Virus record (IMG/VR): IMGVR_UViG_3300029309_000371
Span: 1-22,673 of that record
DNA from: a virus
Reading direction: 5' to 3' (one strand)
Length of the DNA stretch: 22,673 nucleotides
Part shown: positions 282 through 17,716 of the stretch, in pieces
Position numbering within the stretch: position 1 is the first letter of the stretch
How the letters are laid out: each line of letters begins with the position of its first letter
Translations under genes and position numbers: made by a program
Notes under the pieces: model-generated
The model's input: the letters and a program-made list of their open reading frames with translations, nothing else
What the model was told of the DNA's origin: nothing
Databases searched by the model: none

Positions 282-1262
282 ATGGCAACTTACGTTAATA
301 ATTTAAGATTAAAAGAGATAGCAACAGGTGACGAAAGCGGAACTTGGGGTACTTCTACAAACACTAATTTAGAGCTGATAGGAGAAGCTTTAGGTGTTGG
401 CACAGAAGCTATTACTACTAATGCTGATACACACACCACAACCGTAGCAGACGGTAGCTCTGATGAAGGTAGAGCTTTTTATTTAAAATATACTGGCACG
501 TTAGATTCAGCTTGCACCATAACAATAGGCCCTAACACTATGAAAAGGGTGCAAATTATAGAAAATGCAACAAGTGGATCGCAAAATATAATTATATCGC
601 AAGGCTCTGGTGCTAATGTAACTATCGCTCCAGGCAAAGTAGCGGTTGTTCAATTAGATGGAGCAGGTTCTGGAGCCGCAGTTTTAGACGCACTTACAGA
701 TCTAGCTGTTACCGATAGCTTATCAATCAACGGTACAACCTTAACCATAGGTGATGCTACTGCTGAAGATACTAAAATAGTGTTTGATGGTAATGCCCAA
801 GATTATTATGTAGGTCTTGATGATAGTGCTGATGATTTGGTAATTGGTTTAGGATCTGCGGTAGGTACAACACCTGCTATTTCAGTTGATGAGAACCAAA
901 ATGTGACTATGCCACAAATAGTGACAGCATCTACTTCAGCTAATATAACTCAAGTAGCTTTAACAGATGGTACAGTTTCATGGGATGCAAAAGCCGCTGC
1001 TAATGCTTTCTTATTATTAGAAGAAAACTCTACAATATCTGCACCAAGTAATGCAGTAGAGGGAGCTATTATTAGTATTGAGGTAGCACAACATGCTACG
1101 AGCGGTCCATATACTTTAGCTTGGAATGCAATATTTGAATTTGTTGGGGATGTGACTCCGACACAGACCGCAACAGATGCTAAGACAGATATATATGCTT
1201 TTAGATACAATGGCTCTAAGTGGCAAAACATTGGTATCAGTCAAAACCTAACACAAAGCTAA
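282..1262 (+). CDS. Phage tail fibre-like structural protein (326 aa)
   Basis: The protein begins with an N-terminal block (ATYVNNLRLKEIATGDESG, then GTWGTSTNTNLE) that I recognise from memory as the conserved start of fibre-like proteins in many marine phages. The middle (about residues 155-195) holds another block typical of these phages, with TKIVFDGNAQDYYVGLDDSA followed by DDLVIGLGSAVG. The remainder is beta-rich and poor in Cys and Lys, with no signal peptide or membrane segment. The conserved N-terminus probably attaches to the virion and the rest forms a shaft or tip; this is inferred. It is followed one base later by a LamG/SPRY protein and then a DUF7483-like protein, so it opens an adsorption cassette. 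The ATG at 282 is supported by the GAGGT site. Confidence 0.75.
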   Translation: MATYVNNLRLKEIATGDESGTWGTSTNTNLELIGEALGVGTEAITTNADTHTTTVADGSSDEGRAFYLKYTGTLDSACTITIGPNTMKRVQIIENATSGSQNIIISQGSGANVTIAPGKVAVVQLDGAGSGAAVLDALTDLAVTDSLSINGTTLTIGDATAEDTKIVFDGNAQDYYVGLDDSADDLVIGLGSAVGTTPAISVDENQNVTMPQIVTASTSANITQVALTDGTVSWDAKAAANAFLLLEENSTISAPSNAVEGAIISIEVAQHATSGPYTLAWNAIFEFVGDVTPTQTATDAKTDIYAFRYNGSKWQNIGISQNLTQS

Positions 1263-1263
1263 C

Positions 1264-2682
1264 ATGGAAACCCTACAGAGAACTGCTAATCGAGGAAGTG
1301 TCTCGACTGGGTATGAGATTGGTAACTCTTTAAAACTTGAAGCTGATAATTCAGAAAGCTTAACTCATACAGGCACTCAATCAACAGCAGGAAATGCTAG
1401 AACTTGGACGTGGGCAGGTTGGATAAAAAGAACAGAACTTGATGGACATGAATATTTATTTTCAGCAGGTTATACAGGCTTTAAGTTTATGACAACAGAA
1501 AACTGGTTGAGATTTGCTATGTATGATGGTAGTACTTCCTACTACCTTGATTTAGATATGGTGTTTCGGGACACTTCAAGTTGGTATCATATTGTTGGTC
1601 AATTAGATACAACGCAGGGGACTGCGGCTAACAGAGCAAAAGTATGGGTTAATGGAGTTCTTCAAACAGAATTTAGAGCAAGCACAAATTACACAAGTAT
1701 TCCTCAAAACACAGAATTTCAAATAGGTCAAACAGGAAGCTCATCAAACTGGTTAAAAATAGGAGATTGGTTTGCAGCAGGAAGATACCTTTCAGCTTAC
1801 ATAGCAGAATGGCATTTTACAGATGGAGTAGCTAATGAAGCAGATGCTTTTGGTGAGTTTGATAGTGATACTGGTATTTGGATACCTAAAGAATATACAG
1901 GTTCTTATGGCACTATCGGATATTATTTAGACTTTTCTGATTCTGCTAATTTAGGCAATGATTCTAGTGGTAATAGCACAGACTTTTCAGAAACTAACAT
2001 CACAGCCGCAGATCAAGCGACTGACACACCTACTAATAATTTTGCAACATTAAATCCTCTACATTACACAACCAAATATACAATAACTGAAGGAGCTACG
2101 AATCAAGTATCTTCTGCAGATGGATGGGGTGCTAGTGTTGGCTCTGTAGGAGTTACCTCTGGTAAATGGTATTTTGAAGTACAATCTGCTGATACTAATG
2201 GATATACTCTTCTTGGTGTTATAGACCAAGATAGTGTAATAGGCACATATGTAAATGCTGATGCTCACGCAGGAGATGCTCCTTATGGCATAGCCTATTA
2301 TGGTGGCAATGGCTCAATTATTACTAATGGTTCAGCATTATCAGGAGTTTCTTTTCCTTCATGGACTACTGAAACTATGGGTTGTGCATTAGATTTAGAT
2401 AACAATAAAATATATTTTTCTAAAAGTGGAACTTATGGCAACTCAGGAGACCCAGCATCAGGTTCAAATGGAGTATCTTTGCCAACAGGTGGAAGTGGTA
2501 CTTGGTTTATTTCGACATCAACTTATTACGCTGCTAACCCAGCCAAAACGAATCAAGGTGGCTATACAACAAACACACCATCAAGTGCAGCAAGTGATGC
2601 CAATGGCTACGGAACTTTTGAATACGCACCACCTTCTGGATACTATGCAATATGCACTAAAAACTTAGCGGAGTTTGGATAA
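1264..2682 (+). CDS. LamG-like plus SPRY-like receptor-binding protein (472 aa)
   Basis: Residues about 45-200 look like a laminin-G/concanavalin-A-like jelly roll: WAGWIKR, then WYHIVGQLDTT, AKVWVNGVLQTEF and a final IAEWHFTDG, the usual strand order of phage LamG domains. Residues about 297-420 look like a SPRY domain, with GKWYFEV near the start and MGCALDLDNNKIYFSKSG near the end. Both folds bind carbohydrate or protein ligands, so a role in recognising the host surface is likely but inferred. There is no catalytic signature of a depolymerase. The gene starts one base after the previous stop with no clear Shine-Dalgarno site, which suggests translational coupling, and its TAA overlaps the next ATG (TAATG). 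The fold assignments are from pattern only. Confidence 0.7.
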   Translation: METLQRTANRGSVSTGYEIGNSLKLEADNSESLTHTGTQSTAGNARTWTWAGWIKRTELDGHEYLFSAGYTGFKFMTTENWLRFAMYDGSTSYYLDLDMVFRDTSSWYHIVGQLDTTQGTAANRAKVWVNGVLQTEFRASTNYTSIPQNTEFQIGQTGSSSNWLKIGDWFAAGRYLSAYIAEWHFTDGVANEADAFGEFDSDTGIWIPKEYTGSYGTIGYYLDFSDSANLGNDSSGNSTDFSETNITAADQATDTPTNNFATLNPLHYTTKYTITEGATNQVSSADGWGASVGSVGVTSGKWYFEVQSADTNGYTLLGVIDQDSVIGTYVNADAHAGDAPYGIAYYGGNGSIITNGSALSGVSFPSWTTETMGCALDLDNNKIYFSKSGTYGNSGDPASGSNGVSLPTGGSGTWFISTSTYYAANPAKTNQGGYTTNTPSSAASDANGYGTFEYAPPSGYYAICTKNLAEFG

Positions 2683-3737
2683 TGGCTTATACAACGATAG
2701 ACGACCCATCAGCACATTTTCAATGTGAACTTTACACAGGTAATAGCACTACAAATGCAATAACTTTTTCAGGTAACAGCGATATGAAACCTGATTTAGT
2801 TTGGAACAAAAGGAGAGATGCTGCATACAACCATGTTTTGTGGGATTCGACCAGAGGTGTTACAAAGTATATAGCTTCTAACACTTCATCCGCAGAAGCC
2901 ACTTTTGGTTATGTTTCTTCGTTTGATACTGATGGTGTTACTTTTGGCACTGCTGACCAAGCTGTAAATACTAATGGTGGTTCTTATGTTTTATGGAATT
3001 GGAAAGCCAATGGAGGGACAACTGCAAGTAATAGTGATGGAGATATCACCTCAACTGTTCAAGCAAATACAACAGCAGGTTTTAGCATAGTTACTTACGC
3101 TGGTAACGGCAGTCAAGACCAAACAATAGGACATGGATTAGGAGCAGTTCCTAAAATGATTTTATTTAAAAATAGATCAAACTCTGCTTATTGGTATGTT
3201 TATCATATAGGTACTGGAAATGATACTATGATGTATCTTAATTTAAGCAATGCCGCACAATCTTTATCAAGTCAGTTTTCTACCCCAACAACCACAACTT
3301 TTAATGTTAGTAACGAAAACAGCACATTTAATGGTTACAACACAAATACTGATAATTATGTTGCTTATGTATTTGCAGAGGTGCAGGGCTACTCAAAATT
3401 TAGTTCTTACATTGGCAACGGAAATGCAGATGGTCCGTTCGTCTATACAGGATTTAAACCTGCTTTTATAATGTTGAAAAGAACAAATGGTAGCGATGGT
3501 TGGTTTTTACTAGATGCAAAAAGAAATCCAATCAATATTTCAACTAACAGTGCTATAAGAGTTGATGAATCTGGAGCAGAAGGTTCAGCATCAAAATTAA
3601 TAGATATGCTTTCTAATGGTTTTAAATTAAGAGGTAACGATGGTGCTTACAATGGAGGAGGTAATCCCTATATCTTTATGGCATTTGCAGAAAATCCATT
3701 CGTAACATCAACAGGAATCCCAACAACAGCTTTTTAG
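2682..3737 (+). CDS. DUF7483-like phage tail/fibre protein (351 aa)
   Basis: Two successive domains are visible. Around residues 125-230 there is GFSIVTYAGNGSQDQTIGHG, then LGAVPKMILFKNRS and WYVYH. Around 235-345 a second copy-like segment has FSSYIGNGNADGPFVYTG, FKPAFIMLKRT and WFLLDAKRNP, ending with a block (IFMAFAENPF) frequent at the C-terminus of these proteins. The pattern matches what I know as DUF7483, a phage family of unknown biochemical role found with receptor-binding proteins. The N-terminal 120 residues are less conserved. Translation is probably coupled to the LamG/SPRY gene through the TAATG overlap. In many related phages, as I recall, these modules are fused into one long fibre; here they are separate. 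The stop codon lies inside a 16-base palindrome. Confidence 0.7.
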   Translation: MAYTTIDDPSAHFQCELYTGNSTTNAITFSGNSDMKPDLVWNKRRDAAYNHVLWDSTRGVTKYIASNTSSAEATFGYVSSFDTDGVTFGTADQAVNTNGGSYVLWNWKANGGTTASNSDGDITSTVQANTTAGFSIVTYAGNGSQDQTIGHGLGAVPKMILFKNRSNSAYWYVYHIGTGNDTMMYLNLSNAAQSLSSQFSTPTTTTFNVSNENSTFNGYNTNTDNYVAYVFAEVQGYSKFSSYIGNGNADGPFVYTGFKPAFIMLKRTNGSDGWFLLDAKRNPINISTNSAIRVDESGAEGSASKLIDMLSNGFKLRGNDGAYNGGGNPYIFMAFAENPFVTSTGIPTTAF

Positions 3738-4761: not shown

Positions 4762-4944
4762 GTGAATATTTATGACGATCCTTTGCATAAAATTGAGATA
4801 CATGAAAAAGAATGTGCTCAAAGATATAAAAATATAGAGGAACGTCTTGAATCAGGAGCTAAAAGGTTTGATAAGCTAGAAAACATGATATGGGGCGTTT
4901 ACCCATTTATCGTAATTAGCGTAGTATTAGCTAAATTTTTATAA
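4762..4944 (+). CDS. Small coiled-coil protein with C-terminal membrane segment (60 aa), GTG start
   Basis: The frame is open from 4705, but the most plausible start is GTG at 4762, one base after the preceding stop; this gives a protein beginning with NIYDDPLHKIEIHEKECAQR. A charged helical stretch (residues about 8-40) precedes a hydrophobic C-terminal segment (MIWGVYPFIVISVVLAKFL). A short soluble helix followed by a C-terminal anchor is a common design among small phage membrane proteins, including some holins and antiholins. The stop overlaps the next start (TAATG). No strong Shine-Dalgarno site precedes the GTG, so the ATG at 4705, which lies inside the upstream gene, remains possible. 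Confidence 0.6.
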   Translation: MNIYDDPLHKIEIHEKECAQRYKNIEERLESGAKRFDKLENMIWGVYPFIVISVVLAKFL

Positions 4945-5327
4945 TGAACGAACATAGAAGCACATTTTCTGGAGATATGGACCGTAATGAAGTTGAGATG
5001 GATCTCAATAAATTTATGGCTATGATTGAAGAAATATCTCAACTCAAAGATAAGATTAGAGATCTTGAAGATGATACAACCAAAAACCCTCATCAAAGAT
5101 GGATTCATCTAGCAAAAGCGGTTGATTCTTGGAGAATATTTCCAAGAGCCTTTCTTACCGTATATATAGTTTTATTGTATAAATGTACTATTTGGTTTAT
5201 GGAATTACCAGAACCTACATTTGAACAGTCTGGCCTTATTTCTATTGTTGTGGGCGCTGGTGCTGCTTGGTTTGGTTTATATGCAGGAACAACAGGGAGC
5301 AGTAAACAATTTAAAGGCGAAGATTAA
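4944..5327 (+). CDS. Predicted holin-like membrane protein (127 aa)
   Basis: Residues 1-50 are hydrophilic and helical. Two hydrophobic segments follow, about 70-92 (FPRAFLTVYIVLLYKCTIWF) and about 100-118 (ISIVVGAGAAWFGLYAGTTG), joined by a short acidic loop, with a short charged tail. The second segment (VGAGAAWFGLY) is a pattern I recall in putative holin-like proteins of marine phages. A two-segment protein of this size upstream of a lysozyme that lacks a signal sequence is a reasonable holin candidate. The gene overlaps its neighbours at both ends (TAATG at 4944; its TAA overlaps the ATG at 5327). The function is inferred from topology and neighbourhood. Confidence 0.6.
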   Translation: MNEHRSTFSGDMDRNEVEMDLNKFMAMIEEISQLKDKIRDLEDDTTKNPHQRWIHLAKAVDSWRIFPRAFLTVYIVLLYKCTIWFMELPEPTFEQSGLISIVVGAGAAWFGLYAGTTGSSKQFKGED

Positions 5328-6451
5328 TGAAGAATGACGACCAAAGAAAGCATGATAATATGCTTGCTTGGGCAGCATTAATGTTTCTTATTACTTTAGT
5401 AGCAGGCGTTTCTATACAAGCAAACGCTCAATCTTCTCAACAATCTGGTACAGCTTGCGTCAACGGTACACAATATTGTGAAAATTCTAATGTTTACACA
5501 ACAAATCAAACCACTACAAATAATACCAATACAAACACTAATACAAACACTAATACCAATAATACGACTACCAGTAACACTAATGTTTCAACAAATACGA
5601 ATGTATCTACAAATACCAATACTTCGACTAATACAAATGTAAATACAAATCAAAACACAAATGTCAATACAAATGTAAATACTTCGACCGCTAATAGCAC
5701 ATCAAATAATACTAATACAAATATAAATACATCTACTTCAACCAGTAATGTAAATTCGACAGTAAATCAAACTGTAAATAATACTAATGTAAATACATCA
5801 ACTAGCACGTCTGACAATACGAACAGAAATATTAATGAATCTACTTCGCAATCAAACGTACAGACTAATAACGTAAATCAAAATAATAATAATACTAAGT
5901 CTGACAATACCAATAGAAACATTAATGAATCAAAATCAGTCCAAACAATCAATCAAAATGTAAAGTCTGAAGCGCCACCAGCTAGTGCTATTGCCCCATC
6001 TATAATGAGTTATTCACAAGACTTATGTACTACTGGCCTGAGTGGAGCTTTCCAAGGTCAAGTATTTGGTTTATCTGGTGGTAAGTCTGTAAGAGATATG
6101 AATTGTGAAAGACTTAAACTGTCTAAATATTTATACGATATGGGTATGAAAGTAGCTGCAATATCTTTGTTGGCTCAAGACGAAAGAGTATTTAAGGCTA
6201 TGTGGCAAGCAGGTACACCTGCTCCATACGAAGGCAAAATAGGAGAGGAAGCAAAAAAATTATGGTTAGCTAATCCTTCTAAAAGACCCGATAAAAAAGA
6301 TATTGAACAAGAGTTTATTGCAGAGTGCAGCCAAGAACACAATCCTAAAAGAGATGAAATACAAAAAGACGTAGCTGGTATAATTAGTAAAGTGGTTGTA
6401 AGAAAAACAAAATCTAAAAGACAATGCAAAAAAGAATTATATGGGGGTTGA
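5327..6451 (+). CDS. Exported Asn/Thr/Ser-repeat protein with conserved C-terminal domain (374 aa)
   Basis: A signal peptide is visible: a charged start, a hydrophobic core at residues 12-30 and an AxA site (A32-N33-A34, cleavage before Q35). After a short region with two Cys (ACVNGTQYC), residues about 57-215 are almost only Asn, Thr, Ser and Val, in units such as NTNTNTN and NVSTNTN, plus a duplicated DNTNRNINES block. The C-terminal 155 residues form a distinct charged and helical domain with four Cys, containing DMNCERLKLSKYLYDMGMKV and LLAQDERVFKAMWQAGTPAP; I recall this domain from proteins of marine phages. The protein is likely exported to the periplasm or beyond and may be fibrous. 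It overlaps the next gene by 28 bases, so the two are probably made together. Function unknown. Confidence 0.7.
   Translation: MKNDDQRKHDNMLAWAALMFLITLVAGVSIQANAQSSQQSGTACVNGTQYCENSNVYTTNQTTTNNTNTNTNTNTNTNNTTTSNTNVSTNTNVSTNTNTSTNTNVNTNQNTNVNTNVNTSTANSTSNNTNTNINTSTSTSNVNSTVNQTVNNTNVNTSTSTSDNTNRNINESTSQSNVQTNNVNQNNNNTKSDNTNRNINESKSVQTINQNVKSEAPPASAIAPSIMSYSQDLCTTGLSGAFQGQVFGLSGGKSVRDMNCERLKLSKYLYDMGMKVAAISLLAQDERVFKAMWQAGTPAPYEGKIGEEAKKLWLANPSKRPDKKDIEQEFIAECSQEHNPKRDEIQKDVAGIISKVVVRKTKSKRQCKKELYGG
5508..5815 (+). repeat. Degenerate trinucleotide-rich repeat encoding Asn/Thr/Ser
   Basis: The coding DNA is made of repeated AAT, ACA, ACT and GTA codons (for example aatacaaacactaatac), giving NTNTN and NVNTN motifs. 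Codon choice varies between units, so this is an old, diverged repeat and not a fresh slippage product. Confidence 0.75.
5810..5932 (+). repeat. Two direct copies of a 33-base unit (S-DNTNRNINES) 90 bases apart
   Basis: Copies at 5810-5842 and 5900-5932 encode the same SDNTNRNINES peptide, in frame, and differ at only four bases. They lie at the end of the Asn/Thr-rich region and point to an internal duplication. Confidence 0.75.
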
Positions 6452-8649
6452 TCCTTCTATCCTGCAATCTTCCAGGACAATACACATACGAAGCCAATCA
6501 GCCTTTATTTGATTTACATGATAACGCTAATAACTTTCAAGGTGAGTTAGCATACGAGGTAGTTGATGACGGTATTTCACCTGCAATTGATCTTTCTTTT
6601 GACTTTACTTTTTACGGCTCTACATTTTCACAAGCACGAATGGCGACCAATGGTTGTTTACACTTTGGCAATAGTGGTAGCTATTGCAGCGACTTTACTC
6701 CTGATCCACTTAACGGACAACACACCTATACCATATATCCTTTTTGGACAGACCTAATTAGAGATAACAATTCTCGTATGAAGTCTTGGGGCGATAGCTC
6801 AAAGATGATTTTTGGTTGGTATTATCTGAGGGAATACAATCGTGCAAATACAGACAATAGTTTTGAAGTTATACTTTGGAACAATAATTCTTTTGATATT
6901 CGCTATAGAGAACTTAATATTATTAACCATGATGTTTTAATTGGTGAGGTAGGCTCTAGTAAAAACAATTCATACACTTATCATTATCACGATGAATGCA
7001 ATACTGGAACAACTAACTCTTCTACTTGCGTAAACACCAACTGGAACAATACATCTATTAATACAACGCTAGAGAATGGCGGTTCACTGTATGGAGCAGG
7101 CAGTGGTAATGGTGTAGATTGTAGCAATCCATTAAATGATTCTAGCTGTAACGGTTATGCCGATGCTTTATTAACTCAACAATGTAATATAAGTCAGCTT
7201 TATAGTGAATCTTGTCCTAATTATTGGGCTGCGTATGATGACCAACAATGTGATGAAGATCCTCAATACGCGTCTTTTTGTCCTGGTTTCAGACAAGAAG
7301 AATCAGTGGCTTTCTTTGATGACAGGAATGTTGACTTTGGTTTTGAAGATGAGCAAGAGCAATTTGCTACAGGTATATTTATAGATGATGGCCCAAATCA
7401 CCATCAAGACGAGCCTTTCATAGTTATAGATATTTTTGAAGAAGAAATGTTCCCGCCTTTTGAAGAGTTTGGCCATGATGACTTTGAGGATTTTTTTGGT
7501 GAGCCTGAAGAAGATGAGTTTATTATTTTCTTTGAACCAGAACCTTTACCATTTATAGATGATTTTAGACCAAGGCATGAAGATCCACTACACCAAGAGG
7601 ATGTATTGTTAGAACAGTTTGTCCTACAAGAAACTTTATTTGTAGAAGATTTTACAGAACCTGAAAATTTCTTAGCCATTAATACTATAGAAGAACTTGA
7701 TGATTGGTTTGAAGAAGAAACTAGAGAGATAAGAGAAGAGATTAGAGAAGAAAGAATTGCTGAAAGAGATGAGCCTGAAGAAGAGTTTATAGAAGAGATA
7801 TTTGAAGAAGAAGCGGTTGAAGAAGTTTTTGAAGAGTTAGAAGAAGTATTTGAAGAGCTAGAACAAGAAAGATTGGCAGAAGTTGAAGAAGAACAGCAAG
7901 AAGAAATAATAGAAGAGCTAGAAGTTATTGAGAGTGATGAGCCTACAGGTAAAAACAAAAATAGGGTTGTTGCACTTAATGTGATTAAAAACGCCTTAAA
8001 CGCAGCCTCAAGCAGCGTAAACTATGGTTCTACTGCCAATCAATCAAGCTCTAATACAAATGTCAGCTCCAGTGTTGCTAATCAAACATCTAGTTCTGGG
8101 TCTGGTGGAGGTATCAGCACATCTAGTTCGCCTAGTATTTCAGACCAATACGCTAGTGCTACAGCCCAAAACAACCAGGTTTTATCTATGAGTGGAGATG
8201 TTGGTGGATCTGTGACGGTTAGCATTACGCCTATGAATACTGTTGATGGCGGTACAGAAGTAGTGATGGCTGATGTGCAAGTTCAAAACGTCCAAGGTGA
8301 AATAGATACTGCCATTGGTGGCGTGATGACCCAATCAGAGGCAGATCAGATAGCAGACAAGATAATTGCTCAAAATATAGAGGCCCAACAAGAAGAAATG
8401 CAAGAAGAACAACAAGCTACAGGTGAGTATAGTGACGAATCAAGTTTGGTTGCCTTGATAGGATATGTTCCACAGTTTAATTCATATACTCAAACGACAA
8501 TTCCTGATAGCTCCAGTTGGTACACTTCTCAAGATATATACACCTCTGCTACACTAGATGACAACATAAACGCTTTTTATAATTATGCGAGTACAAATAT
8601 AAATAATTTACAAAGCATGATGCAAAATCAACCTGAAATATGGAGGTAA
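6424..8649 (+). CDS. Exported nidogen-like mosaic protein with acidic and Ser-rich regions (741 aa)
   Basis: Four to five regions are visible. Residues 1-14 form a signal sequence ending in LLSC, a possible lipobox (C14). About 20-215 resemble the extracellular nidogen (NIDO) domain: DLSFDFTFYGSTFSQARMAT, NGCLHFG, then YTIYPFWTDLI and NSFEVILWN. About 230-290 is Cys-rich with two QQCxxxxxYxSxCP units. About 290-505 is strongly acidic, made of Glu/Asp/Phe and then Glu-rich coiled coil. About 529-573 is Ser/Asn-rich, and a C-terminal region (575-741) ends in LVALIGYVPQFNSYTQ and later QSMMQNQPEIWR. Nidogen-like domains occur in extracellular adhesive proteins. I recall proteins with this order in marine phages, with no known role. 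It starts inside the preceding exported gene, suggesting a joint function at the cell envelope. A structural virion role cannot be excluded. Confidence 0.7.
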   Translation: MQKRIIWGLILLSCNLPGQYTYEANQPLFDLHDNANNFQGELAYEVVDDGISPAIDLSFDFTFYGSTFSQARMATNGCLHFGNSGSYCSDFTPDPLNGQHTYTIYPFWTDLIRDNNSRMKSWGDSSKMIFGWYYLREYNRANTDNSFEVILWNNNSFDIRYRELNIINHDVLIGEVGSSKNNSYTYHYHDECNTGTTNSSTCVNTNWNNTSINTTLENGGSLYGAGSGNGVDCSNPLNDSSCNGYADALLTQQCNISQLYSESCPNYWAAYDDQQCDEDPQYASFCPGFRQEESVAFFDDRNVDFGFEDEQEQFATGIFIDDGPNHHQDEPFIVIDIFEEEMFPPFEEFGHDDFEDFFGEPEEDEFIIFFEPEPLPFIDDFRPRHEDPLHQEDVLLEQFVLQETLFVEDFTEPENFLAINTIEELDDWFEEETREIREEIREERIAERDEPEEEFIEEIFEEEAVEEVFEELEEVFEELEQERLAEVEEEQQEEIIEELEVIESDEPTGKNKNRVVALNVIKNALNAASSSVNYGSTANQSSSNTNVSSSVANQTSSSGSGGGISTSSSPSISDQYASATAQNNQVLSMSGDVGGSVTVSITPMNTVDGGTEVVMADVQVQNVQGEIDTAIGGVMTQSEADQIADKIIAQNIEAQQEEMQEEQQATGEYSDESSLVALIGYVPQFNSYTQTTIPDSSSWYTSQDIYTSATLDDNINAFYNYASTNINNLQSMMQNQPEIWR
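7177..7290 (+). repeat. Two Cys-pair repeats (QQCxxxxxYxSxCP), 66-base period
   Basis: Units starting at 7177 and 7243 encode QQCNISQLYSESCPNY and QQCDEDPQYASFCPGF. The spacing of 22 residues and the conserved Cys, Tyr, Ser, Cys and Pro suggest a small disulfide-bonded repeat, which fits export out of the cytoplasm. Confidence 0.65.
8642..8647 (+). promoter_or_regulatory. Shine-Dalgarno GGAGGT for the gene at 8651
   Basis: GGAGGT lies just before the ATG at 8651, within the last codons of the nidogen-like gene. The match is near-consensus although the spacing is short (3-4 bases), which supports a separate start for the membrane coiled-coil protein. Confidence 0.6.
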
Positions 8650-8650
8650 T

Positions 8651-8998
8651 ATGGACTGGTTACAAAATAAAACAACACAAATAATTGCACTTGTAGGCAT
8701 TGTTGGCACGCTTGCAGGCTTTGGTTATCAAGGCGCAGAGTATGTCAACAGACTAGAAAACCTAGAGGCTAAAATTGGTGGCATAAGCGAAGCAGAGGAT
8801 AACGTACAAGTTATTGAAGAACGCTTTGCATCTATAGAAACATCAGTTCAGTTTTTAGAAAAAGAGATAGATGGTATAGATGTTCCAGATGTTACTGAAA
8901 TAAAAACTGACATTGCAACTATTAAAGCTGATTTAGAAAGCTTAGATAAACAAATAGAGGAAATAAAAGATGACAACAAGAATCCTCTTGCTGGTTAG
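8651..8998 (+). CDS. Membrane-anchored coiled-coil protein (115 aa), spanin-like topology
   Basis: A hydrophobic segment at residues about 9-28 (TQIIALVGIVGTLAGFGYQG) is followed by an extended charged coiled coil to the end, with heptad-like ENLEAKIGG, VIEERFASIETSVQFLEKEI and IKADLESLDKQIEEI. This is the topology of an N-terminal anchor with a long periplasmic helix, as in inner-membrane spanins, but the sequence does not match a named spanin that I recognise. Its last 29 bases overlap, in another frame, the start of a lipoprotein gene, the same arrangement as the clear spanin pair just downstream. Alternatives are a cell-envelope scaffold or an antiholin. The start is supported by the GGAGGT site. 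Confidence 0.6.
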   Translation: MDWLQNKTTQIIALVGIVGTLAGFGYQGAEYVNRLENLEAKIGGISEAEDNVQVIEERFASIETSVQFLEKEIDGIDVPDVTEIKTDIATIKADLESLDKQIEEIKDDNKNPLAG

Positions 8999-9173
8999 TA
9001 TATTTTTAATTGGTTGTTCTACACCATCTAACTACATACCTATAGCTGAAAACTCTAACTTAGAGTGGAACGATAAATTTGACTCTGATAAATGGCGAGA
9101 AAAATATAAAAAATGTCAGGCATTTTTATACCACGATCACGATGCTTGGAATTGGTGTATGGATAATGAGTAA
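8970..9173 (+). CDS. Small lipoprotein (67 aa)
   Basis: The signal sequence MTTRILLLVSIFLIGC ends in a clear lipobox (L13-I14-G15-C16), so the mature protein of about 52 residues should be lipid-anchored. The mature part begins STPSNYIPIAE, is rich in Trp, Lys and Asp, and has two more Cys near the end (KKCQAFLYHDHDAWNWCMD). AGAGGA at 8956-8961 lies eight bases before the ATG. The gene overlaps the membrane coiled-coil gene by 29 bases and the spanin gene downstream by 8. It may act as an outer-membrane partner of the upstream coiled-coil protein, but it lacks the Pro-rich character of many Rz1 proteins, so this is inference. Confidence 0.65.
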   Translation: MTTRILLLVSIFLIGCSTPSNYIPIAENSNLEWNDKFDSDKWREKYKKCQAFLYHDHDAWNWCMDNE

Positions 9174-9561
9174 AGTTTTACTAGGTATAGTTTTAGTTTT
9201 GCTTGCAGTTTCTTATTACTTATACAGTCAAAACCAAATACTCCAAATGAATAACGCAGTTTTAGAGGGCGCAGTAGAAACCCAAGAAGAAGCCATCAAA
9301 TCATTACAACAAGACTTTGAGTTGCAAACCCAACAACTTCAAGATCTAAGTATAAAAAGTCAAATAGCTCAAAGAGAATTAAATAGATATACACAGTTTA
9401 TACAAAACTATGAGTTAGCCTCAAAGATATTGGCTGACCCAGTTGAAATGGAAAGGAAAATAAATAATGGTACAAAACACATTATGGAAGATATTGAGAA
9501 AATCAGCACCACTGTTGATAGTCTTGATAATGGCTTGCAGTTGCAGCCTACTGCCAACTAA
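9166..9561 (+). CDS. Inner-membrane spanin-like protein (Rz-type, 131 aa)
   Basis: The frame is open from 9079, but the ATG at 9166 places a hydrophobic anchor at the N-terminus (MSKVLLGIVLVLLAVSYYLY), as in Rz-like i-spanins, and overlaps the preceding stop by eight bases. A long coiled coil follows (residues about 25-95: QTQEEAIKSL-type heptads, many Gln) and then a conserved-looking block with DPVEMERKINNGTKHIMEDI. i-Spanins span the periplasm and pair with an outer-membrane lipoprotein to disrupt the outer membrane after the wall is cut. The last 95 bases overlap, in a different frame, a lipoprotein gene, the embedded Rz/Rz1 arrangement. This order and topology make the assignment strong even though no close homologue could be checked. 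Confidence 0.75.
   Translation: MSKVLLGIVLVLLAVSYYLYSQNQILQMNNAVLEGAVETQEEAIKSLQQDFELQTQQLQDLSIKSQIAQRELNRYTQFIQNYELASKILADPVEMERKINNGTKHIMEDIEKISTTVDSLDNGLQLQPTAN
9453..9457 (+). promoter_or_regulatory. Shine-Dalgarno AAGGA for the overlapping o-spanin gene
   Basis: AAGGA lies nine bases before the ATG at 9467, inside the i-spanin coding region. It shows that the second frame is independently translated. Confidence 0.65.
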
Positions 9562-9850
9562 ACAAATACAAGTTTCTGCAAAACCTATTGAAAGGCAAAT
9601 AGTACAACCTATTATGCCTAGAGAAATAAATCTCAAGGAACTACAGTGGATTGCAGTAACACCTGAAAACTGGGAAGAACAGCTTGCAAGAATAGAAAAA
9701 CAAGAGGGCGAGTTAGTCTTTCTAGCTATGACAATTCCTGATTACGAAGTTATGGCTTACAATATGCAAGAGATAAAAAGATATATTACAGAACTTAAAG
9801 ATGTGGTTGTGTATTATAGAAAGGTAACTACTAACAAAGATGAGCAGTAA
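9467..9850 (+). CDS. Outer-membrane lipoprotein spanin-like (Rz1-type, 127 aa)
   Basis: The start lies inside the i-spanin gene and has a good ribosome site. The signal sequence runs KSAPLLIVLIMACSCSLLP with a lipobox at I21-M22-A23-C24 (C26 is a less likely site). The mature protein has a short Pro/Lys/Gln linker, then a C-terminal domain with LKELQWIAVTPENWEEQLAR, LVFLAMTIPDYEVMAYNMQ and ITELKDVVVYY. I recall this C-terminal pattern (PxxYExxxxNMxEIxRYI) in small lysis-module proteins of marine T4-like and podo-type phages. At 127 residues it is longer than lambda Rz1, so it may be a two-domain o-spanin. It overlaps the nuclease gene by 11 bases. Confidence 0.7.
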   Translation: MVQNTLWKILRKSAPLLIVLIMACSCSLLPTKQIQVSAKPIERQIVQPIMPREINLKELQWIAVTPENWEEQLARIEKQEGELVFLAMTIPDYEVMAYNMQEIKRYITELKDVVVYYRKVTTNKDEQ

Positions 9851-10220
9851 ACCAGAACCATACATTTACAAGGCAACAGTAGAAAGAGTTGTAGACGGCG
9901 ATACAGTCGATGTAACACTTGATTTGGGATTTGATGTAAAGCTACACAAACAGCGCGTACGTTTGGCCCAAATAGATACGCCCGAATCTAGGACTAGAGA
10001 TTTAGCAGAGAAAAAATTAGGCTTAGCAGCAAAAGAAAGGCTGAAAGAATTATGCGTTGGTTCAATCACCATTAAATCATTTGGTAAGGGTAAATATGGC
10101 AGAATACTTGGGATACCTTATACGGAAGATGGCGAGGATATTTGTCAAATGCTTATTGATGAAGGGCACGCGGTTGTTTATGACGGCGGTAAAAAAACAA
10201 AAGTTTGGGGGGATTACTAA
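9840..10220 (+). CDS. Staphylococcal nuclease-like (thermonuclease) enzyme (126 aa)
   Basis: The active-site pattern of the SNase fold is complete: D19-G20-D21-T22 (calcium site), R41-L-A-Q-I-D46-T-P-E49 (equivalent to R35, D40 and E43 of staphylococcal nuclease) and Y86-G-R88 (equivalent to R87). These enzymes cut DNA and RNA with calcium. The length is close to the core domain (about 130 residues). There is no signal peptide, so it should act in the cytoplasm or be released on lysis. It overlaps the o-spanin gene by 11 bases and is followed at once by the lysozyme, so it is expressed with the lysis genes. Possible roles are degrading host or leftover DNA or lowering lysate viscosity; the role is inferred. 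Confidence 0.88.
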   Translation: MSSKPEPYIYKATVERVVDGDTVDVTLDLGFDVKLHKQRVRLAQIDTPESRTRDLAEKKLGLAAKERLKELCVGSITIKSFGKGKYGRILGIPYTEDGEDICQMLIDEGHAVVYDGGKKTKVWGDY

Positions 10221-10221
10221 A

Positions 10222-10665
10222 ATGAATATTTCAAATGAAGGCATATCTTTAATTAAAAAATTTGAAGGGTGCGAACTAGAAGCCTATAAATGTGCGGCTG
10301 GTGTATGGACTATTGGTTATGGACATACTAAAGATGTGCGCGAAGGCATGACTATATCTAAAGAACAAGCTGATAACATGTTGTTAAATGAATTAGATAT
10401 TTACTGTTTACATGTAGAAAAAGCAGTAGAGGTTGATTTAAAACAATGCGAGTTTGACGCTTTGGTATCTTGGACTTATAACTTGGGGCCAACTAATCTA
10501 AACAATAGCACTATGTTAAAAGTTTTAAACGACAAAGATTTTAACGAAGTTCCACATCAATTAAAAAGATGGAACAAAGCAAATGGTGAAGTATTGCAGG
10601 GTTTGGTAAGACGTAGAGAAGCAGAGGCTTTGTTATTTGAAGGCAAAGATTGGACAGAGGTTTAG
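10222..10665 (+). CDS. Endolysin, T4-type lysozyme (GH24), 147 aa
   Basis: The catalytic pattern E-8-C-5-T of phage lysozymes is present: E15 (KKFEG), C24 and T30 (GVWTIGYGHT, with G32-Y33-G34-H35). Later conserved features are QCEFDALVSWTYNLG, the ...STMLKVLN helix and a C-terminal GLVRRREAEALLFEG. The enzyme cuts the glycan chains of peptidoglycan. Having Cys in place of Asp in the second position is normal in the P21/T4-like branch. There is no signal-anchor sequence, so it must pass through holin holes, which fits the small membrane proteins at 4345-5327. The frame is open from 10057, but the ATG at 10222 with GGGGGGA (10207-10213) is the natural start; the longer version adds residues without homology. 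Confidence 0.92.
   Translation: MNISNEGISLIKKFEGCELEAYKCAAGVWTIGYGHTKDVREGMTISKEQADNMLLNELDIYCLHVEKAVEVDLKQCEFDALVSWTYNLGPTNLNNSTMLKVLNDKDFNEVPHQLKRWNKANGEVLQGLVRRREAEALLFEGKDWTEV
10656..10660 (+). promoter_or_regulatory. Shine-Dalgarno AGAGG for the tail nozzle-like gene
   Basis: AGAGG lies five bases before the ATG at 10666, at the end of the lysozyme gene, and supports the start directly after the lysozyme stop. Confidence 0.55.
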
Positions 10666-12540
10666 ATGACAGTAGCTAGATTTACATTTCAACCAGGCAT
10701 AAAAAGAGAGGGCACTCAGTATGATAATGAAGGCGGTTGGTTTGATTGTAATCTAATAAGATTTAGACAGGGTAGACCTGAAAAATTTGGAGGCTGGGAA
10801 AAATTAACCACTAGCACATATTTAGGAACATCAAGAGCTTTACATAATTGGATTGCTTTAGATGGTAGTAAGTATTTAGGCAACGGAACTAATTTAAAAT
10901 ATTACATAAAAGAAGGTAACACTTTTAATGATGTCACTCCTATAAGACTTACAACGGGTGCGGGAGATGTTACATTTTCAGCCTCAAATGGTGATGCCAC
11001 AATAACAGTAGCGGATACTGCGCATGGAGCAGTAAAAAATGATTTTGTTACTTTTTCTGGCGCCTCTTCTTTAGGTGGTAATATCAACTCAAATGTTCTC
11101 AATCAAGAATATCAGATAGCAACTATAGTCAATGCAAACTCTTATACCATAGAGGCAAAAAATACTAGCGGAGTTACTGTTACTGCTAATGCAAGTGATA
11201 GCGGTAATGGAGGCAGTTCTGTTGTAGGTGCTTATCAAATTAATACTGGTTTAGATGTATTTGTACCTTCTACTGGTTGGGGTGTGAGTTCTTGGGGTAA
11301 CGGCGGTTGGGGATCATCAACAAGTATTTCTGCAACCAATCAGCTAAGACTTTGGACGCATGATAATTTTGGTGAAAACTTAATAATTAATCCTAGAGGT
11401 GCTGGTATTTTTGAATGGATTGAATCAAATGGCCTTAATACTAGAGCAGTAGACTTATCAGCTAGAACTGGAGCTAACCTTGTTCCAACCAAAGGTTTAC
11501 AAGTAATAACATCAGAAATAGACAGGCATTTGATAGTTTTGGGTGCAGACCCTTTGAACGCATCAGGAACAGCTAGAACTGGTAGCGTTGATCCGATGTT
11601 GATAGCTTTTTCCGATCAAGAAAATGAATTGGAGTTTGAGCCAAAAATTACTAATACAGCAGGATCTTTACGGCTATCATCAGGCTCACAAATAATTGGT
11701 GCGGTAAAATCAAGACAAGAAATTATTATTTTTACAGACACTTCAGTTTACAGCATGCAATTTGTTGGGCCACCATTTACTTTTAGAGTAAATCTAATAA
11801 ATGAATCCTCTGGATTGATAAGTCCAAAAGCAGCAGTAACAGCGCCACAAGGCATATATTTTATGTCTTACGATAATTTTTACATTTACAACGGCTCAGT
11901 TATAAAACTTAACTGCGATGTCTTAGATTATGTATTTTCTGATTTTAATTCTGAGCAAGCATTTAAAATTAACGCTTTCACCAACACTAAAGAAAACGAA
12001 GTAGGTTGGTTCTATCCGTCTGCAAGCTCTTCAGAAATAGACAGGTATGTAATTTATAATTACCAAGATAAGGTTTGGTATTACGGTCAGCTTTCACGTA
12101 CAGCTTGGCTTGATTCTGGGGTTGAATCATATCCGCAAGCTACAGCCTCAAATTCTTTATTTCAGCATGAAGTTGGTTTTGATGACGATGGTTCGCCGAT
12201 GACAGGCGTGTTTATAGAAAGTTCTGACTTTGATATTGGCGATGGCAACAACTTTCAATTTATTCGTAGGATATTACCAGACGTAAGATTCTTACAAGAT
12301 CCCAATAACGGTTCAGTAAATTTAATAATTAAAACGCGCAATAACAACGGCTCATCTTTAAGTACTAAATCAACAAGCGAAGTAAAAAGTGATACAGGCC
12401 AATTACATATTAGGGCAAGGGGCAGGCAGGCTGTTTTACGATTAGAATCAAACGATGATGCTGCCAACGATGGCAACCTATCAGTTGGATGGCGCTTAGG
12501 AGCAACTAGATTAGATGTGAAACAAGATGGTAGAAGATGA
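10666..12540 (+). CDS. Tail nozzle / packaged-DNA stabilisation-like protein (624 aa)
   Basis: The N-terminus (FTFQPGIKREGTQYDNEGGW, then FDCNLIRFRQGRPEKFGGWE) is typical of phage proteins that form a beta-propeller-like tail tip, such as P22 gp10 (plug or stabilisation protein) and T7 gp12 (nozzle), which begin with NIRFR.G..E..GGW. The centre and C-terminal part continue with features of this type: IVLGADPLN, EIIIFTDTSVYSMQFVGPPF, ISPKAAVTAPQGIYFMSYDN and a VGWFYPS segment. Residues about 95-200 look like an inserted beta domain rich in Gly, Ser and Asn that ends in a Trp/Gly-rich loop (GWGVSSWGNGGWGSS). The protein would close the portal channel at the end of the tail. The assignment rests on pattern and context. 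Confidence 0.65.
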   Translation: MTVARFTFQPGIKREGTQYDNEGGWFDCNLIRFRQGRPEKFGGWEKLTTSTYLGTSRALHNWIALDGSKYLGNGTNLKYYIKEGNTFNDVTPIRLTTGAGDVTFSASNGDATITVADTAHGAVKNDFVTFSGASSLGGNINSNVLNQEYQIATIVNANSYTIEAKNTSGVTVTANASDSGNGGSSVVGAYQINTGLDVFVPSTGWGVSSWGNGGWGSSTSISATNQLRLWTHDNFGENLIINPRGAGIFEWIESNGLNTRAVDLSARTGANLVPTKGLQVITSEIDRHLIVLGADPLNASGTARTGSVDPMLIAFSDQENELEFEPKITNTAGSLRLSSGSQIIGAVKSRQEIIIFTDTSVYSMQFVGPPFTFRVNLINESSGLISPKAAVTAPQGIYFMSYDNFYIYNGSVIKLNCDVLDYVFSDFNSEQAFKINAFTNTKENEVGWFYPSASSSEIDRYVIYNYQDKVWYYGQLSRTAWLDSGVESYPQATASNSLFQHEVGFDDDGSPMTGVFIESSDFDIGDGNNFQFIRRILPDVRFLQDPNNGSVNLIIKTRNNNGSSLSTKSTSEVKSDTGQLHIRARGRQAVLRLESNDDAANDGNLSVGWRLGATRLDVKQDGRR

Positions 12541-15496: not shown

Positions 15497-17716
15497 ATGA
15501 ATGTGTTGCAAAGAAGAATGTTTCAAGCTGGAGGACCTTCAGATAAATTAATACAAACAGAACCAGTAAACTCTGAGCTTGTTCGTTATTACGTGCAACA
15601 AGGTTACAGCCCTTTGGAGATACAAGAAGTTTATCCTATAGCAAGTCTTGGTTTAATTGAGCAGATAGCAAAAGAAGAGGGCCGTAGTTTAAACCCAACA
15701 GTATCACTGGGCGAATCAATGGGTTCTCCAATAACAGGTGGTCCAATTGTAACGCGAGCGCAAAGAGCAGATGTTATTCCTGAAACAATATCAACACCTT
15801 TGGGCGATTTATCTTTTGAGCAGATGCCTGATCCAGATTTGCCTAAACCTGAAGATATAAATGTTATACCGCCAGCCATACAAAATTATATTTTAAACGC
15901 TGGAACTGTTTTAGATAGAGACAATCTTGTTAGAGGCTTGGGAGTAAGTTTTAACTTGTCGTCTGCTGATGCCAATCAAGCTATTGATATAGTGACTGGA
16001 TCTACTGTTCCAGAAACAACGAAACCAGAAACTCCAGATATGCTTAGTATTGACGATGTAATGACTGGAGAGCAGGCTAAGGTTGCAGGTTCAGTATTAG
16101 GACCAAATCAATACAGGACGAGTGACGGTAAAATATTTAATATTGATCCCAATAAATTTCAAAGCCAATTAGAATCTGAAAGTGCAAGAATTTTAGGCGG
16201 TATTTTACAAAATCCTAATGTTGAATATGGTTCAAATATTGCAAACATAATTGAAACAATAGCTAGAAAAAGATCATCAACTTTAGTTCCACAAGAAGAT
16301 ATACGAGTTGGAAACCCAATACAAGGATTAAGTTATTCTGATGTCTTTGAATCAGGTCTTAAAGGAGCAGTTGATTTTGGTAAAGAAACTGTCGAATCTA
16401 TTTATAATCTAGCTCGAGCTCCTTTTTACAATCCAACTCTTAGAGGTATTTTTGGCACAAGAGAAGGCGAAAGGATTCTAAGAGAATCTGGCGCTGGTGA
16501 TAGAGTTAATTTATTTGAAACTGCGTTGGACGATGGATTCCTTACTGGTCAAAGGAGCGACTTTGATGTAGAGCGTGATTATTTTCTGACAGGCGGAGAA
16601 AAAGCAAAAACTTTAGATTCTATTGTTTTAGAATCATCAATAGGCGAGGAGCAAAAAGCAGCAGAAGATGAAATAGCTAAAGATATTGAAGATTTAGAAA
16701 ACCAAACTCAAGCAGAAAAAGACAAAGCTCAACAAGATGGCGCAGCAGCCCAAGACGCAGGAACTACAACAGACGCAGGAACTACAACAGACGCAGGAAC
16801 TACAACAGACGCAGGAACTACAACAGACGCAGGAACTAAAACAGACGCAGGAACTACAACAAAGCGAAAGGGCCCACCAGACGACGCACCAGCAGATAGC
16901 AGCCCAGAGGCAATAGGCGGAGTATTTAACAGTCCTGGGTTTATAGATTACGTTGCAAGCTTATCTAAAGGATTGTCTCAAGCTGAAGATACAGCATCTG
17001 GCTTAGCTCTTGGCTCAGCCATAGCAGCAGAACAAAGACAAATATCAGATTTAGAACAAAAAAAATTAGATCAAGAATTTTTATTAAAACAAGTTGATAG
17101 CGGTAAATTAGATTTTAAAGATGCAAAAGATATATATTCTCTGAATAATACTGCAAACCTAGCAGCGCAAAGTTTCAGAAATTCAACAGAAACACTTGCC
17201 TTAATTAAAGAACTTGAAAATGTTTTAACAAATGAAGATCCAACATCTTTAACAAGTTTTGCAAAAGATATATTTGAAAAAGCAATGACTGCATTAGGGA
17301 AAAGCAAAACTGGTTCAATAGAAGATTTTAAAAATTTAAGTGCAACAGCCCAAGCAAGAAAATTATCTACCTTGATAAGTCAAGCAAACATTAGGGAGAT
17401 TTTAGGAGAGTCTGGTAGAACCATATCTAATTTTGATAGGCAAATTGTGCAAGATCTTTCAGCCTCTATTACTTTAGGTGCAGAGCCTGCTTTAAATCTA
17501 AAAGCTTTATATAACGTAGAAGGCAGAATAAGAAACAACATGCAAACCCAAATAGATGAAATAAATGCAGTAAGACAAGCTTTAAAATTGGCTGGACAAG
17601 ATTTAATTGGTCAAAATGCTTTTAAGGTAATACAAGATGGTATTAGCTTGGCTCAAGAAACTGGGGTTGAGTTAGGAACCGAAGTAATTGATTTTAGAGA
17701 TCAATTTAAAAAATGA
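15497..17716 (+). CDS. Large internal virion-like protein with DAGTTT repeats (739 aa)
   Basis: The N-terminal region begins MNVLQRRMFQAGGP and contains a segment (residues about 20-65) resembling a short helical repeat (YYVQQGYSPLEIQEVYPIAS). Residues about 375-419 form an acidic coiled coil (DEIAKDIEDLENQTQAEKDK). They run into six copies of the hexapeptide DAGTTT (420-455, fifth copy DAGTKT) and a Pro/Asp-rich linker. Residues about 475-739 are helical, with many Leu, Gln and Lys. No catalytic motif was recognised; in particular no lytic transglycosylase pattern was seen. The repeats probably act as a flexible spacer. The gene starts eight bases after the previous stop without a clear ribosome site and overlaps the next gene by 4 (ATGA). 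A role in DNA ejection is inferred from position and size. Confidence 0.6.
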   Translation: MNVLQRRMFQAGGPSDKLIQTEPVNSELVRYYVQQGYSPLEIQEVYPIASLGLIEQIAKEEGRSLNPTVSLGESMGSPITGGPIVTRAQRADVIPETISTPLGDLSFEQMPDPDLPKPEDINVIPPAIQNYILNAGTVLDRDNLVRGLGVSFNLSSADANQAIDIVTGSTVPETTKPETPDMLSIDDVMTGEQAKVAGSVLGPNQYRTSDGKIFNIDPNKFQSQLESESARILGGILQNPNVEYGSNIANIIETIARKRSSTLVPQEDIRVGNPIQGLSYSDVFESGLKGAVDFGKETVESIYNLARAPFYNPTLRGIFGTREGERILRESGAGDRVNLFETALDDGFLTGQRSDFDVERDYFLTGGEKAKTLDSIVLESSIGEEQKAAEDEIAKDIEDLENQTQAEKDKAQQDGAAAQDAGTTTDAGTTTDAGTTTDAGTTTDAGTKTDAGTTTKRKGPPDDAPADSSPEAIGGVFNSPGFIDYVASLSKGLSQAEDTASGLALGSAIAAEQRQISDLEQKKLDQEFLLKQVDSGKLDFKDAKDIYSLNNTANLAAQSFRNSTETLALIKELENVLTNEDPTSLTSFAKDIFEKAMTALGKSKTGSIEDFKNLSATAQARKLSTLISQANIREILGESGRTISNFDRQIVQDLSASITLGAEPALNLKALYNVEGRIRNNMQTQIDEINAVRQALKLAGQDLIGQNAFKVIQDGISLAQETGVELGTEVIDFRDQFKK
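16754..16861 (+). repeat. Six tandem copies of an 18-base unit (gacgcaggaactacaaca)
   Basis: Units start at 16754, 16772, 16790, 16808, 16826 and 16844. Five are identical at the DNA level and the fifth has one change (acaaca to aaaaca; Thr to Lys). Identity including third codon positions shows recent expansion or active homogenisation. The 18-base period keeps the reading frame. Confidence 0.9.

Follow-up and report, generated by a model that had tools for sequence, protein, structure and literature searches.

Proteins by which phages exclude superinfecting competitors or mask receptors, such as Llp of T5, are small single proteins. RemA of Flavobacterium johnsoniae is a cellular gliding adhesin secreted by the type IX system. 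Pelagiphages of several families also carry multi-gene T8SS/curli modules (CsgA/B, CsgF, CsgG, FecR and AC genes), for which the main text of PMC9599517 proposes a role in host aggregation (sibling capture) or in superinfection defence. The locus described here lies in a virus record of 22.7 kb, which we call the window over its whole length, where tail-fibre and structural genes at positions 282-3737 are followed by a region of three genes on the plus strand: A (5327-6451), B (6424-8649) and C (8651-8998). Like the curli modules as presented in that text, A-B-C consists of several genes, is directed at the envelope and occurs in more than one phage family; it is a parallel to them, not a relative, at least as far as the main text allows the comparison, in which the A-B-C module is not named. 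Csg components were absent from A, B and C in Pfam scans, and NCBIfam gave none above the curated cut-off. With superinfection-exclusion proteins of the Llp type the likeness, which is one of description only, is in being phage-made, exported, accessory and envelope-directed, whereas A-B-C comprises three genes and includes a large head that can be exchanged. The family matched by A, phrog_20531, is of unknown function, and partner genes have not been described with it. No description of the A-B-C module was found in open-access papers, subscription literature being outside the search, and its parts are annotated as hypothetical or, misleadingly, as 'lysozyme', 'OmpA family' or 'tonB'.

The comparison of loci gives good support to the view that A, B and C are one conserved gene module of marine phages. 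Among 229 unique A loci, 151 had enough downstream sequence to be assessed: B lies directly downstream of A in all 151, and a C gene with an NPL-type end is found in 141, while some of the ten loci counted as lacking C do carry it with a slightly longer tail. Conversely, A lies directly upstream in 64 of 64 assessable loci of the B type found in the window, 12 others starting too near a contig end to be counted. The loci counted are those that matched best in each scan; they do not sample phages at large. The first-pass annotation had suggested that A and B form a phage-encoded surface or envelope system, an idea to be abandoned if the genes were usually apart in other phages; they were not, and the proposal of one exported, envelope-directed system stands, except that it is not a two-gene set, because C is its third component. 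In the window, B starts (ATG at 6424) before A ends (TGA ending at 6451), confirming the reported overlap of 28 bp, and such an overlap exists at 87% of loci, so that translation of the two genes is probably coupled. Predicted promoters and terminators in the A-B region did not exceed those of shuffled sequence.

The module is common in marine phages, since the A domain is found in at least 597 viral contigs (in two scans, 600 of 600 and 597 of 600 of the matches listed encode a relative); a scan with the window type of B gave a relative in 590 of 599 matches listed. Contigs from metagenome-assembled genomes were presumed to derive from phages and to have been binned with their hosts. The A domain occurs in 11 of 50,697 GenBank phage records. 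Eight GenBank phages have an exported A, a larger exported B and then a membrane/coiled-coil C ending in NPLxx, with at least one small gene interrupting the run in HTVC023P, HTVC115P and Baldr, and three further phages (the roseophages CRP-207 and CRP-810, and ct7L0027) have a divergent A. That of CRP-810 bears the label 'OmpA family' but has no match in Pfam. More distant A proteins are present in the Achromobacter phages phiAxp-2, AXY1, 2-1 and ART (hhalign E=1.4e-6), which differ in genome size and each have an exported partner gene close to A. In phiAxp-2 (44598-45710, minus strand), the distant A adjoins an exported Gly/Ser-rich protein, and both are also found in AXY1, 2-1 and ART.

The tree of A cuts across phage groups. 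HTVC033P, an HMO-2011-type phage (PMC9038755), clusters with Baldr and HTVC202P, and a 100/100 branch separates it from CRP-207, which by our reading of the same isolate series is also of HMO-2011 type. The myovirus Mosig pairs with the podovirus HTVC023P at 89/88, short of full support, and S28C10 sits on a long branch whose placement is unsure. On these few isolates, the tree suggests that the module was exchanged among phages of one host. In the group of HTVC023P and HTVC027P it is also accessory. Neither A nor B was matched within the first 45 kb of HTVC027P, and tblastn of the whole phage collection gave no match in this phage either, although it belongs to the same group as HTVC023P and lyses the same host (PMC12753301), so that in its case lysis does not require A and B. 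The genes of HTVC027P that lie between PurM and the M15 peptidase (8980-10936) encode a transmembrane coiled coil, an exported protein of 177 residues, another transmembrane coiled coil and a small ORF, and they are a possible functional substitute for A-B-C.

Gene A encodes 374 residues and was studied with alignments A1, A4, A5 and A7. It has a signal segment (hydrophobic residues 12-30), a linker of variable length, a conserved domain at about 220-320 (positions 5983-6286) and a charged tail. As the first-pass annotation had noted, an Asn/Thr/Ser-rich region precedes the conserved domain: residues 41-215 are of low complexity and 73% N/T/S. In searches of Pfam, NCBIfam and PHROGs, the sole match was that of residues 144-302 to phrog_20531 (PHROGs v4, E=1.8e-12). 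A fold search of the PDB with the full-length model gave nothing significant, long disordered parts restricting such a search, and a search of BFVD returned uncharacterised viral homologues and a weak match in phiAxp-2, which the hhalign comparison given above supports. AlphaFold2 models the domain as a beta hairpin with helices (pLDDT mostly above 90 at about 270-340, and 67-89 around the hairpin). The domain spans about 100 residues and contains four cysteines in most relatives. C234 and C260 are kept in 225 of 225 A sequences. C283 and C299 occur together in 221 of them and never singly; in the other four, the A of the window among them, alanine stands at both positions. This pattern fits a C283-C299 disulfide, and the joint loss may go back to a single ancestral event.

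Gene B encodes 741 residues arranged as an N-terminal beta domain, a Cys repeat, an acidic linker, a Ser-rich linker and a C-terminal segment. AlphaFold2 gave pLDDT of about 80-90 across most of residues 50-290 and low values elsewhere. Window B had no match in Pfam, NCBIfam or PHROGs, and neither did 50 B proteins in Pfam; a PDB fold search with its full-length model, restricted in the same way by long disordered parts, found nothing significant. The head (residues 20-200, positions 6481-7023) is nevertheless related to a known domain: in a profile search of PDB sequences, positions 7-160 of the B profile matched the N-terminal ~165 residues of RemA (PDB 8gl6 chain D, E=1.4e-9). RemA is a cellular protein, and B is phage-encoded, with another linker and C-terminus. 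A T9SS C-terminal domain was not reported by Pfam and NCBIfam scans of window B, which had no dedicated control. The homology is not proof of binding. The first-pass annotation had called the domain nidogen-like, which was not confirmed: at E<=10 the Pfam NIDO profile (PF06119) matched nothing in the window, and it was absent from the Pfam scans of the 50 B proteins, in a search whose positive control scored in one genome only and below the cut-off. The Cys repeat and the long acidic region that it had described were recovered. Residues 201-300 (7024-7323) consist of QQC..D..Y..xCPGF units with Cys and Tyr conserved in alignment A6, and residues 301-505 (7324-7938) are 40% D+E and 4% K+R, although this linker is weak or absent in the B proteins of L098, ctXG6705 and the roseophages. 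A supposed echo of A in the Ser/Asn-rich region of B does not go beyond composition, 33 of 500 shuffles scoring as high.

At the same position, other B proteins have different heads, of a CBM_4_9-like type (a sub-threshold match, E=0.009-0.02), of an 'LCTPGVEE' type, or others. Two visibly different head types have one common C-terminal family, which is itself related to the C-terminus of the RemA-type B of the window (last 120 residues, 8287-8646; hhalign of alignments A10 and A12, E=3.2e-5, probability 73%), while the C-terminus of the CBM-type B is weakly related to those of the other types. By these comparisons, the head of B is interchangeable, and the C-terminal segments of at least two head classes are related. 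The window B itself is a recombination mosaic, given that its head and its acidic linker have different nearest relatives (L015 and L012, respectively).

Gene C encodes 115 residues, with one membrane segment (residues 11-29) and a coiled coil, and ends in NPLAG; the NPL is near-invariant at the C terminus in alignment A3. Ends of this type are found in 3.7% of all ORFs of the size of C, most of which are probably C genes themselves. The charges flanking the membrane segment (102 N-in, 16 opposite and 56 ties) predict an N-in/C-out topology. Several pelagiphage C proteins hold His/Asp-rich stretches (HNHDFDHTHD and similar, e.g., in L005 at 8044-8364 and in L004 at 7990-8346) that could bind metal. 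Two roseophage C genes (L269 7162-7584 and L270 3292-3873) are annotated 'lysozyme' or 'putative lysozyme', likely a misannotation, as their sequence is that of a transmembrane/coiled-coil protein ending in NPL.

All segments of A and B are under purifying selection. The dN/dS is mostly 0.02-0.3, also in the low-complexity and acidic segments (0.07-0.24 for the acidic linker of B where computable), with a value of 0.47 in one short stretch, the tail of A compared with one relative. Since even the Asn/Thr/Ser and acidic regions are constrained, A and B are real, used proteins. The export signals reported by the first-pass annotation are a general trait of the families: N-termini resembling signal peptides are found in 210 of 217 A (97%) and 140 of 151 B (93%). 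Among other ORFs, counted from 200 residues upwards, the share is 15%, by the same home-made heuristic and with some unrecognised B genes among these control ORFs. A and B are accordingly read as Sec-exported proteins.

These traits lead us to propose, tentatively, that A, B and C form a complex anchored in the inner membrane, which holds a binding head in the envelope of the infected cell and is most likely directed at competing phages or at re-adsorption. C would be the inner-membrane component, its coiled coil reaching into the periplasm; A would be a disulfide-bonded periplasmic partner, and B would dock through its C-terminal segment, with a long linker by which the adhesin-like head is held either across the periplasm or on the outer surface. 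There, the head might bind a host surface molecule, such as a glycan or a receptor, so that competing phages are blocked or released progeny are kept from sticking to debris. The module would then be an accessory trait held in common by phages that infect one host. Of the possible uses, keeping out competitors or preventing re-adsorption agrees best with the accessory distribution, with the tracking of the host seen on few isolates, and with the diversity of heads.

An accessory role in lysis, where a periplasm-spanning A-B-C destabilises the envelope and adds to or replaces spanins and holins, is a less probable reading, but one that the gene neighbourhood brings to mind. C has a predicted topology like that of an i-spanin (a single N-terminal membrane segment and a periplasmic coiled coil), and late or lysis genes are often found close to the module. 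In the window it is separated only by a small lipoprotein gene from two spanin genes (9079-9561 and 9467-9850; phrog_739 at E=1e-11 and phrog_812 at E=7e-12), followed downstream by a nuclease, a phage lysozyme and a virion structural protein. The first-pass annotation had placed A and B between holin-like and spanin genes; the spanins are supported, whereas the gene upstream of A (4944-5327), which has two hydrophobic segments, matches only phrog_10198, of unknown function. The lipoprotein-like ORF (8970-9173, 67 residues, ...FLIGCSTPSNY) begins within the end of C and lies ahead of the spanin genes. The nuclease (9840-10220) is SNase-like (phrog_452), lies between the spanins and the lysozyme, and belongs to a family also seen close to A at 56 of the 229 loci. 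Farther along, an 18-bp tandem repeat at 16753-16861 (6.1 copies, 97% match) corresponds to DAGTTT repeats in the ORF 15497-17716. In other phages, too, lysis genes are close: an M15 peptidase lies directly after C in HTVC023P, a lysozyme about 1 kb downstream in ctXG6705, and the slot in HTVC027P between PurM and M15 holds another exported protein with membrane coiled coils. Yet, besides A-B-C, a separate spanin pair and a lysozyme are encoded in the window, a recognised lysis gene is near only 23 of 51 well-flanked loci (a moderate association), several isolates have the module beside terminase or capsid genes, and diverse B heads are not expected of a lysis part. C matches phrog_739 at E=0.0015 only, among many generic coiled-coil matches. 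The lipoprotein feature of o-spanins is missing as well, the signal region of A having no Cys and the lipobox-like LLSC of B not being conserved in the family alignment, and hence A-B-C does not belong to the two-component spanins. The separate spanins and lysozyme of the window, the moderate association with lysis genes and the lysis by HTVC027P, which lacks A and B, also weaken the earlier suggestion of an envelope scaffold used at lysis.

We regard as rather improbable that B heads, exposed on the exterior of the infected cell, make neighbouring hosts adhere to each other. The RemA-like adhesin head and the long linkers of A and B would suit such aggregation, for which the curli of pelagiphages and the sibling-capture hypothesis set out in the main text of PMC9599517 offer a precedent; against it, the module comes without an outer-membrane secretion partner, and the curli-bearing phage Melnitz showed no clumping (PMC9004378). 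Still more doubtful is that A and B decorate the virion tail or head, with hydrophobic N-termini that remain uncleaved, even if the module is often near tail-fibre genes and its exchangeable heads recall the modularity of tail fibres. The near-universal signal-peptide-like starts argue against ordinary virion proteins, C is a membrane protein, the paired loss of cysteines in A suggests an oxidised periplasmic domain, and neither A nor the window B matched a virion-structural PHROG.

If A-B-C is indeed an envelope complex presenting a binding head, it could represent an undescribed class of phage envelope machine, a suggestion we make with slightly more reserve than the proposed function itself: a conserved chassis of A and C on which B heads can be swapped, moving between unrelated phages that infect one host and forming a reservoir of envelope-binding specificities in abundant ocean phages, while Achromobacter phages have distantly related versions of it. 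HTVC023P, which has the module, and HTVC027P, which does not, infect one host and make the question of its function testable. Should the module guard infected cells or keep progeny off debris, phages would be competing in this way on a wide scale on SAR11 and related bacteria.
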